Assembly: GCA_903821905.1 (NCBI GenBank)
Contig: CAIJMQ010000003.1
Coordinates: 1-11,345 of the forward strand
Length of the DNA stretch: 11,345 nt
Source: an uncultured bacterium
GTDB lineage: Bacteria; CAIJMQ01
Direction: 5' to 3'
The translations under genes were made by a program, and so were the position numbers. This document shows, in pieces, positions 1,178-4,724 of the stretch (within the stretch, counting starts at the first letter, position 1; each line of letters begins with the position of its first letter). The notes below the pieces were generated by a model, which did not search any database, was not told the DNA's origin, and saw nothing but the letters and a program-made list of their open reading frames with translations.

Positions 1178-2218
1178 ATGTTTAAACTAGATAATAAATC
1201 AAATAATAAATCCGCTTTGAACGTTAAAGTTATTGGCGTTGGCGGTGCAGGAGGTAATATTGTCAATTTGGCTGTGAAAGATAATTTCTTGGGTGTTGAA
1301 TTCATTAATATCAATACGGATTCTCAAGCACTGAAGGTTTCTCCTGCCCCCGTAAAAGTAGAATTAGGTATATATACTACTAAAGGCGAGGGTGCCGGCG
1401 GCGATTTAGATACAGCAAGAAGAGCTTGTGAAGAACAAAGGGAAGAAATTGTTCAAGTATTAAAAGGCGCTCACCTCGTATTCATTACAGCAGGCATGGG
1501 TGGTGGTACAGGTACTGGAGCAGCACCTGTTATTGCAGAAATTGCGCACAGTTTGGGAATAATGACAATAGCAGTTGTTGTGCTTCCTTTTTCTTTTGAA
1601 GGGAAGAGGAAAAGGATTAAAGCCCTAAGAGGCAAAGAAGAATTGAAAATGAGTGTCGATACTCTTATTGCAATAGAGAACGATAAATTATTTGCGAATT
1701 TAGTTGGAAATACTCCCCTTACGGAAAGTTTCGAAAAAGCGAACTATATTTTGGTAGAACTTATAGAAAGCCTTTCGTCTTTATTAATAAATCCGGGTAT
1801 TGTAAATATGGATATGGCCGCATTCAGAAAAGTTATAGAAGGAGGCAGAGAAGTTATTTTGGGTATTGGTGAAGGTGAAGGCGAAAATAGAGTTATATCT
1901 GCTGTTGACGGAGCGGTCAATTCGCAATGGCTTGAGAAAAACAGTTTCAAAAAACTTAAAAGAGTATTAATCAGTGTTATGGGTGGAGAAGATTTAAACT
2001 TTAAAGAAGCCAGCCAAATTGTAGAAATGATTTATCATAGGGTTCATCCCGAAGCATACATTACATTTGGGGCTTTTTCTTTACCAAGATATAATAACAA
2101 ACTCAAAGTAATTGTTATAGGTGATACGGCTGCGGTTGAATCTATGGAAGACTTTAAAGATACAACCATTTCACCAACAAAGAAAAGTGAAGGAGGCCCT
2201 TTCCTATGGAAAGAATGA
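1178..2218 (+). CDS. ftsZ: Cell division protein FtsZ, divergent in the T7 synergy loop
   Basis: FtsZ is the tubulin-like GTPase that polymerises into the cytoplasmic Z-ring. The 346-residue protein has the N-terminal [11 protein letters not shown] (20-30), NTDSQAL (46-52), the tubulin signature [10 protein letters not shown] (106-115), a switch region around FEGKRKR (140-146), [13 protein letters not shown] (160-172), GENR (235-238) and a terminal GPFLWKE resembling the conserved C-terminal peptide that binds FtsA. Two departures stand out. The T7 loop, normally NxDFAD, reads NMDMAA (210-215), so the residue matching E. coli D212 is alanine. The T3 loop reads [11 protein letters not shown], without the usual proline. 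The linker before the terminal peptide is only about 20 residues, so the protein is short. The ATG at 1178 is the only start that keeps the GTPase fold intact, but it has no Shine-Dalgarno sequence. GTP binding looks intact; fast hydrolysis is doubtful. Confidence 0.96.
2191..2196 (+). promoter_or_regulatory. Ribosome binding site of glyA, inside ftsZ
   Basis: A perfect AGGAGG sits 9 bases before the ATG at 2206 and favours that start over the in-frame ATG at 2215. The same bases encode the glycines of the FtsZ C-terminal peptide, so one stretch serves both protein function and glyA translation initiation. Confidence 0.8.
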
Positions 2219-3453
2219 ATTACAAAGACATAAAAAAAGTTGACCCCGAGGTTTGGAAATGGATTAAAGAAGAAACAAAGCGGGAAAGAGAAACTATAAA
2301 CTTAATAGCATCGGAAAATTTTGCTCCTTTTTCCGTGCTTTCCGCGCAAGGTTCTGTTCTTACAAATAAATATGCTGAAGGATATTCTTTTGCTCGGTAT
2401 TATGGTGGTTGCCAGTTTATCGACCAGATAGAAAAGTTAGCTATCGAAAGGACAAAGGCGTTATTTAACTGCGAACACGCCAATGTTCAACCTCATTCAG
2501 GTTCCCAAGCCAATATGGCGGTTTATTATTCCTCTCTTAAACTAGGAGACGCAATTTTATTTATGGATTTACGTGCCGGCGGTCATCTTACCCATGGCAG
2601 TAGTGTAAATTTTTCCGGGAAATTCTTTAAACCCTATTTTTATGGAGTAGATAAAAAAACAGAAACAATTGATTTTAATGTAGTCGAAGACTTGGCAAAG
2701 AAACATAAACCCAAATTGATTGTGTGTGGTTATACCGCATATCCCAGGAAAGTAGATTTTAAAACTTTTTCTGAAATTGCATCAAGGACAGGAGCATATC
2801 TTATGGCTGATATTGCGCATATAGCAGGATTGGTTGCTGCGGGACTTCATCCTTCACCGCATCCCTTTACCGATTTTACTACAACAACAACCCATAAAAC
2901 ATTAAGGGGCCCCCGCGGAGGAATAGTAATGTGTAAGGATGAATTTGCCAAACAGATAGATTCTACTGTTTTCCCCGGGATTCAAGGCGGACCTCTTATG
3001 CACGTTATTGCCGCAAAAGCGATTGCTCTTCATTTAGCTTCTACAAACGAGTTCAAAGAATATCAGAAAAAAGTTCTTGCCAATGCCAAAATATTGGCTA
3101 ACTCACTTAAAAAATTAGGTTACAGGTTAGTATCCGGAGGGACAGATACACATCTCGTATTGGTAGATTTAAAACCCCAGGGCATAACCGGTAAAGAAGC
3201 TGTAGAAATATTAAAAAGAGCTAATATATGCGTGAATAAGAATACTATTCCTTTTGATCCACTATCTGCGAGGTTAACCTCAGGAATAAGATTGGGAACT
3301 CCTTCTGTTACTACTCAAGGTATGGGCGGGAAAGAAATTGAACTTATTGTTTCCTTCATTCATCGTGCATTAACAAACAGAAATGACGACAAGAAACTCA
3401 AGCTAATCCGAGAAGAAGTAAAAACTCTATGCAAGAAGTTCCCACCATATTAA
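2206..3453 (+). CDS. glyA: Serine hydroxymethyltransferase
   Basis: GlyA is the PLP enzyme of the cytoplasm that converts serine and tetrahydrofolate to glycine and 5,10-methylene-THF, the main source of one-carbon units. At 415 residues it has the usual length. Visible marks are NLIASENF (32-39), NKYAEGY (54-60), RYYGG (64-68), HSGSQAN (97-103) for cofactor phosphate, GGHLTHG (125-131) with the PLP-stacking histidine, the DIAHIAG stretch (202-208), and [14 protein letters not shown] (226-239), where K231 is the Schiff-base lysine. The loop between EGY and RYYGG is SFA instead of the common PG(K/R), and the residue before GGH is alanine instead of histidine; the core catalytic residues remain. 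The gene overlaps ftsZ by 13 bp and is probably translationally coupled to it. Its product supplies methylene-THF, a cofactor of the MnmE reaction encoded later in the window. Confidence 0.97.
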
Positions 3454-3592: not shown

Positions 3593-4150
3593 TTGATAAC
3601 TAACAAAGAGTCTATTTACTACGAACTTCTAATCTTACGCTGTCGGCGCGGAGAAAAAAACGCACTGGAAGAATTGATCCATAACTGGGAAAGACGTCTT
3701 TTCTATTATGTGCGTAGACTTGTAGATAATGAGCAAGATGCCTGGGATATTCTTCAAGAGATGTGGTTAAAAGTCATTCAAGGTATAAAATTATTGCGTA
3801 AACCTCATAGTTTGCCAGCATGGTTATATAGAATTGCTCGAAATACAGCTATAAGTCACTTGAGATCTCAACATTCAAAACTCGTTTTGATTAACGAGAA
3901 TGAAAACACTTCCTATGTTGAGGAGAACGACGAAAATTTTCGTTTTGAAGATGCGGAGCAGGTTCACTACGGACTAAGCCGGATATCCTTACCCCATAGG
4001 GAAGTTTTAACACTCTACTTTCTACAAGATCTTTCTTTGGAAGAAATTGCAGATGTTTTAGATGTTCCTTTGGGAACAATAAAATCACGACTCCATTATG
4101 CTAAAAGTGCTCTTCGAGCTGTATTAGAGAAGGAGGAACGAAATGAATAA
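3593..4150 (+). CDS. ECF-family RNA polymerase sigma factor
   Basis: The 185-residue protein has only the two sigma regions that define the extracytoplasmic-function group. Region 2 (about 20-92) includes EQDAWDILQEMWLKV (47-61) and LPAWLYRIARNTAISHLR (74-91), which bind core polymerase and the -10 element. Region 4 (about 126-178) includes LSLEEIADVLDVPLGTIKSR (147-166), the helix-turn-helix that reads the -35. The two are joined by an acidic linker rich in E, D and N (about 100-122). No region 1 or 3 is present. The start is TTG with a good Shine-Dalgarno sequence. The last 8 bases overlap the next gene, the usual arrangement of a sigma factor and its regulator, and an ECF-like promoter in front suggests autoregulation. 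The signal and regulon cannot be read from this window. I do not assign it to a named ECF group. Confidence 0.93.
   Translation: MITNKESIYYELLILRCRRGEKNALEELIHNWERRLFYYVRRLVDNEQDAWDILQEMWLKVIQGIKLLRKPHSLPAWLYRIARNTAISHLRSQHSKLVLINENENTSYVEENDENFRFEDAEQVHYGLSRISLPHREVLTLYFLQDLSLEEIADVLDVPLGTIKSRLHYAKSALRAVLEKEERNE
4131..4136 (+). promoter_or_regulatory. Ribosome binding site of the membrane partner gene
   Basis: AGGAGG within the 3' end of the sigma gene is 6 bases before the ATG at 4143. A strong site combined with an 8-bp gene overlap implies coupled translation of sigma factor and partner. Confidence 0.75.
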
Positions 4151-4724
4151 TAAATCTAACCAATCTTTCTGTGACCAACTGTTAGAAAAAGAACAATTAA
4201 ATCCATCTTATAAAGAAAAATATGAAAAGGAGGTAAAAGCAATGATTGAACATAAACTTACAGGTATAAAAAAATTGTCACATATAATAGCACTAATTAT
4301 GAGTTTGGGATTCGTTATTCTTTTTGGTACTTTAGCTGTGGTTGTACCCAAAGAGCTCCCAATATTAGCTCGTTTGGGTTTCGTGGTTGGTGCTATATTC
4401 GGTTTAATTTGGGTTGTAATCTTAATACGTATTCTTAAGAAAGGTGTCCTCAACTTAAAAACTGATTCTAAGTTTATGGCAGGTATAACTTGGGTTTTCG
4501 TTGTAATCATGATGACATTGTTCTTACTCATTGGAGGAAAAAATCCTAATTCTGTTGCGTCAGTTTTCATGGTTGTTTATGGAATTGTATTCCTGATTGG
4601 AGCAGCAGCAGGTTTAATAAACACCGTTATACAACAGTCCGAACTTAACACCCGTGAAAAACTTCTTGAAATTGAATACCATCTTGCTGAAATTTCTGAG
4701 CAACTAAAAAAGAAACAAGTTTAA
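4143..4724 (+). CDS. Four-helix membrane protein, putative regulator (anti-sigma) of the ECF sigma factor
   Basis: This is a 193-residue protein of unnamed function. A charged cytoplasmic-looking N-terminus (1-45, with FCDQLLEKEQLNPSYKEKY) is followed by four hydrophobic segments at about 47-68, 77-97, 113-131 and 138-160. A charged helix follows (about 166-191, EKLLEIEYHLAEISEQLKKK) that could form a coiled coil. Both ends would lie on the same side of the membrane. Its overlap with the sigma gene and the strong ribosome binding site make an anti-sigma role likely, because such partners are usually co-translated. It does not show the HxxxCxxC zinc anti-sigma motif; only one cysteine is present in the N-terminal part. 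Similar membrane proteins next to ECF genes are known to me from Planctomycetes-like genomes, but that is memory, not a search. It could instead be a sensor or an effector controlled by the sigma factor. Confidence 0.72.
   Translation: MNNKSNQSFCDQLLEKEQLNPSYKEKYEKEVKAMIEHKLTGIKKLSHIIALIMSLGFVILFGTLAVVVPKELPILARLGFVVGAIFGLIWVVILIRILKKGVLNLKTDSKFMAGITWVFVVIMMTLFLLIGGKNPNSVASVFMVVYGIVFLIGAAAGLINTVIQQSELNTREKLLEIEYHLAEISEQLKKKQV

Follow-up and report, generated by a model that had tools for sequence, protein, structure and literature searches.

A single FtsZ with alanine in place of the second synergy-loop acid in a family of a candidate bacterial phylum

The T7 loop of beta-tubulin is devoid of a catalytic acid, and the GTP of the partner subunit is left unhydrolysed. 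The residue found there is Lys, where the FtsZ described in this work has Ala; tubulin differs further as a heterodimer whose second loop is catalytic. For FtsZ itself, Mukherjee and co-workers (2001) reportedly described a strain of E. coli sustained by the D212G variant. The E. coli D212A protein retains 7% of the wild-type GTPase activity, and A. thaliana FtsZ1 D275A retains about 15% (PMC8142252). Rings of the D212G protein assemble but are static (PMC7320174), and in E. coli the D212G allele complements only when a suppressor is present (PMC5405962). In the solved S. aureus filament, R143 and D213 are bridged by one water molecule, and it is D210, not D213, that swings to place water; the D213N change abolished assembly, and R143K protein assembled with an approximately 6-fold lower GTPase activity and stabilised polymers (PMC8936486). 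Among natural proteins, the FtsZ of Ca. Thiosymbion oneisti also has a low GTPase activity, but its catalytic residues are conserved and the low rate has another cause (PMC8953583). A divergent FtsZ was described in V. spinosum of the Verrucomicrobiota (PMC1845146), where ftsZ is essential by TraDIS (PMC12283558).

Here, we analysed an 11,345-nucleotide stretch of DNA from an uncultured bacterium (the window), which corresponds to contig C3 in a genome of 1.30 Mb (121 contigs, 84% complete). The closest named records of its FtsZ, both from metagenome assemblies, are those of Ca. Ratteibacteria STD1_7 (81% identity) and of an Omnitrophota-labelled entry (80%). The comparison set, a candidate phylum whose nearest named record is Ca. 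Ratteibacteria, consisted of seven genomes of one class, four from the family of the window (f1) and three from a sister family (f2). The ftsZ gene lies beside ftsA, and the features of the locus are collected in Table 1. The segment between these two genes (997-1110) holds a strongly folding palindromic element (z-score -6.2) with seven further matches in the genome (81-90% identity, some partial), and it is a dispersed MITE- or REP-like repeat. Further downstream (3593-4724), a gene for an ECF-type sigma factor is followed by an overlapping gene for a 193-aa probable membrane protein with no Pfam match, which is possibly the regulator of the sigma factor.

Table 1. Coordinates of the ftsZ locus in the window and of the f2 counterparts.
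Feature	Position	Strand	Basis
ftsA, 5' end cut by contig start	1..996	+	NCBIfam ftsA 204 bits, above cut-off
ftsZ, sole copy in the genome, 346 aa, 3' end overlaps glyA start by 13 bases	1178..2218	+	
T3 loop, proline replaced by Leu	1385..1420	+	alignment
E71 (= E. coli L68), candidate substitute acid	1388..1390	+	alignment
T4 tubulin signature GGGTGTG, intact	1499..1519	+	
K145, equivalent of S. aureus R143	1610..1612	+	alignment; role from PMC8936486
T7 synergy loop NMDMAA	1805..1822	+	sequence and alignment
D212 (window FtsZ) = E. coli D209 / S. aureus D210, kept	1811..1813	+	alignment
A215, replaces E. coli D212 / S. aureus D213	1820..1822	+	alignment
C-terminal peptide GGPFLWKE after a very short linker	2192..2215	+	identical in 4/4 f1 species
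glyA, fixed neighbour of ftsZ in both f1 and f2	2206..3453	+	Pfam SHMT; equal order in f2 loci L034 and L036
f2 FtsZ without canonical T2, T3, T4 and T7, synteny with ftsA and glyA intact	L034:2226-3191, L035:2539-3513, L036:2848-3798		

The window protein scored 298.6 bits against TIGR00065, the NCBIfam FtsZ equivalog, which is above the cut-off of 295.2; the other FtsZs of the phylum scored below it. It carries both Pfam domains (PF00091 and PF12327) and can be aligned with solved FtsZs over its whole length. The best PDB matches of its AF2 model (pLDDT 89) were all FtsZ, many of them at 1.5-1.8 Å across approximately 305 columns. The tubulin signature GGGTG[T/S]G is present in the window protein and absent from f2. 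The synergy loop deviates from NxDxx[D/E] in that the first acid is kept and the second is lost. The protein is FtsZ by orthology, and the part that fails is the canonical catalytic loop.

The loop is encoded by aat atg gat atg gcc gca, which reads N210, M211, D212, M213, A214 and A215. Equivalent residues in E. coli numbering were assigned by a MAFFT alignment anchored on motifs. It placed A215 opposite E. coli D212, as the preliminary description of this DNA had claimed, and its two other statements, an intact T4 signature and a T3 loop without proline, were borne out as well. That description had left to comparison whether the alanine is common to the FtsZ of the nearest genomes. All four f1 species read NMDMAAF, so A215 is not a sequencing error, and a non-acidic residue occupies the D212 position in all seven FtsZs of the phylum. 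The position of S. aureus R143 is Lys throughout f1 (4/4) and Arg in 119 of 134 other FtsZs. Compared with the S. aureus filament, f1 keeps the equivalents of N44, D46, Q48, G72, N208 and D210 (PMC8936486), and the pocket residues of T1, T2 (N, D and Q), T4, T5, T6 and H7 are retained. Loss of the guanine-binding residue of H7 was considered and ruled out, as N189 matches E. coli N186 in the alignment and other FtsZs have Asn there too. With the pocket residues kept and the equivalents of D213 and R143 changed, the pocket appears competent for GTP binding and the catalytic half-site weakened at two linked residues.

The f1 proteins share with canonical FtsZ (E. coli and S. aureus) the fold, the gene order with ftsA, the residues of T1, T2, T4, T5 and T6, and the equivalents of N207 and D209. 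They differ from it in the lack of D212 and of the T3 proline, in Lys for S. aureus R143, in a very short linker, and in further changes, which are Glu for E. coli L68, His for D96 and Leu for D299. We infer that the GGPFLWKE peptide is likely the FtsA-binding tail.

Each of the seven phylum genomes, three of which are at least 92% complete, contains one FtsZ. Apart from sub-threshold fragments, a search of these genomes revealed no second ftsZ even at E 10, which contradicts the earlier suggestion that the cell may have two FtsZ types, this protein being one of them. Pairwise omega of ftsZ was 0.08-0.11 within f1 and 0.036 between two close f2 species. FtsA was above the cut-off in all seven genomes, and an FtsW/RodA-type protein was present in six, scoring as FtsW in the one tested member of each family. 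A lack of FtsW in the phylum was ruled out in this way, since the single SEDS protein scores as FtsW. The order ftsA-ftsZ-glyA is kept in both families. In a tree of 67 FtsZs, f1 and f2 formed one group (98/90), but the long branches call for caution. MreB was found in six of the seven genomes (G000-G006). Apart from G003, where none was found, the genomes each yielded a single SEDS protein, FtsW-type where tested.

From the sequence, its conservation, the single copy, the selection, the synteny and the predicted fold, we infer GTP binding, slow hydrolysis and a stable ring. With a probability of about 0.6, the f1 protein is the sole, working division FtsZ of these cells, which would bind GTP, hydrolyse it slowly and build a stable, FtsA-anchored ring. 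GTP would be bound in a nearly normal pocket, and ordinary protofilaments would form. The composite active site would contain one acid (D212, equivalent to E. coli D209) instead of two, and Lys would replace the arginine partner of the lost acid; these two features together would make hydrolysis slow, as it would proceed through the D209-equivalent acid alone. The Z ring, anchored by FtsA, would then persist for long and carry the FtsW septal machinery as a scaffold instead of treadmilling fast. Polymerisation with slow turnover had been offered in the preliminary description, and by analogy with the D212A, D212G and D213N mutants it is the best-supported reading. The laboratory mutants of the synergy loop (D212A/D212G, FtsZ1 D275A and D213N) are changed at the equal position, D212A to the equal residue. 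Unlike in these mutants, the residue in the window protein is naturally fixed, in the sole FtsZ of the cell, and is accompanied by further changes. Speaking against this reading, D213N fails to assemble and D212G fails to complement without a suppressor, so that the f1 change must be compensated by putative interface changes.

Another acid, a possibility raised in the preliminary description, might instead compensate and keep hydrolysis near normal; the best candidate is E71 in T3. This residue presumably sits close to the gamma-phosphate side of the interface, in the subunit that holds the nucleotide, and faces the T7 loop of the next subunit. Glu is found there in all four f1 proteins and in both f2 FtsZs that keep the residue; outside the phylum the position is mostly Leu and is acidic in only about 1% of FtsZs. 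The f2 proteins, however, keep the Glu though the rest of T3 is deleted, so E71 need not be catalytic, and hardly any other lineage that lacks D212 has a Glu there. We therefore consider rescue by E71 unlikely, and slow hydrolysis through a single acid is preferred.

To gauge how far D212 loss extends, bacterial genomes with a completeness of 90% or more were sampled, leaving out the genome of the window, and 371 of 389 gave an FtsZ match. The T7 loop was read in 186 FtsZs from this sample and from smaller searches, a set that is not random because low scorers and one class were deliberately over-sampled. Both acids were present in 146 of them, the D209 acid only in 31 and the D212 acid only in nine. 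None lacked both, which is close to chance, as about 1.5 of 186 would be expected if the two losses were independent. The 31 proteins without the D212 acid, all with the D209 acid, come from this phylum (7), from family f36 (2, with Ser) and from one class (22), in which about half of the sampled FtsZs lack D212. Outside the phylum and this aberrant class, Asp occupies the position in 129 of 131 scorable FtsZs; the remaining two belong to a single family and carry Ser. D212 was thus lost several times in cells with one FtsZ, and the possibility that the loss is unique to this phylum was ruled out by sampling the order and class of genome G132.

That class is probably Verrucomicrobiia; its signature GGGTGSG is shared with V. 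spinosum (PMC1845146). Within the order that includes G132 (L183-L201 and L118), 19 of 20 FtsZs have no acid at D212. Like the phylum studied here, the order as a whole lacks D212 and has a single FtsZ in each genome. Unlike in this phylum, T2 and T4 are mostly intact, the replacing residue is Thr, Ser, His or Ala, and the loss is independent. One member, L201 (G401), reads ALGGGFSGG in T4 and AFDLSTL in T7. Other orders of the class (L212, L221-L225 and L228) show the converse loss, with D212 kept and D209 replaced by G, A, H, Q or T. In family f255 (L124; G367, G432, G441 and G449), nearly complete genomes of 2.3-2.5 Mb yielded a single FtsZ match to TIGR00065 at E 1e-17 to 1e-20, and by this score the f255 FtsZ is extremely diverged. 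The structural literature calls these catalytic residues conserved across species (PMC8936486). By the survey, several lineages can do without D212, and every one of the 186 scorable FtsZs retains one or both of the acids. No earlier description of such natural variation was found in openly licensed papers, which is weak evidence of novelty.

The recurrence of the loss in unrelated lineages with one FtsZ is also what would be expected if D212 (E. coli D209) alone gave a normal rate, the second acid being dispensable and the ring treadmilling as usual. The observation that S. aureus D210 is the residue moving in catalysis agrees with this (PMC8936486). We regard a normal rate as improbable, given that the reported D212/D213 mutants all lose most of their GTPase activity or assembly (PMC8142252, PMC7320174, PMC8936486) and that the partner arginine is changed too. 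A slow, stable ring is again the preferred reading.

The sister family f2 has Thr at the D212 position, and its phosphate loops are rewritten. NTD of T2 is DSS or otherwise altered, T3 is mostly deleted, and GGGTGTG of T4 is replaced by GGETSAL (two species) or GGDISQK (one species). The base-side residues, which are PFxFEG of T5, N of T6 and N of H7, are kept. The f2 protein still models as FtsZ (pLDDT 89, solved FtsZs matched at 2.1-3.4 Å), and its gene stands in the order ftsQ-ftsA-ftsZ-glyA (ftsQ by position and length). The f1 FtsZ is approximately 40% identical to typical bacterial FtsZ versus approximately 30% to that of f2, and GlyA is 61-63% identical between the two families, which indicates fast FtsZ evolution in f2. 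Within the sample, as read from the motifs, the loss of T2, T3 and T4 beyond that of D212 is peculiar to f2 of this phylum. The f2 family carries the f1 trend on to the loss of the phosphate-binding loops. We tentatively propose, as a possibility that is less probable than its opposite, that the phylum represents a natural series leading stepwise to a division ring uncoupled from GTP turnover. In f1, the second acid of the synergy loop would be lost along with the arginine that partners it, and then, in f2, the T2, T3 and T4 phosphate and Mg loops; the f2 polymer would be nucleotide-insensitive and still an FtsA-bound division scaffold.

The missing T2, T3 and T4 loops of f2 could also mean that FtsZ is no longer the division-driving polymer in this phylum, being kept for another role while something else places the septum. 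The retained ftsQ-ftsA-ftsZ order, FtsA and FtsW, together with strong purifying selection, make this very unlikely. An artefact of assembly or binning, or a gene in decay, can practically be dismissed: the seven genomes are probably, and the two with public names in fact, metagenome assemblies, but four f1 and three f2 species agree, the frames are open and omega is well below 1.

On the preferred reading of a slowly hydrolysing sole FtsZ, the FtsZ ring with which bacteria of this phylum divide is probably slow or static. It is a standing question whether GTP consumption and treadmilling by FtsZ are required for division, and it has so far been approached mainly through weakened mutants in model species. 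A natural test of it would be provided by a lineage whose only FtsZ is fixed for the classic catalytic mutation, together with a sister family that lacks the phosphate site as well.
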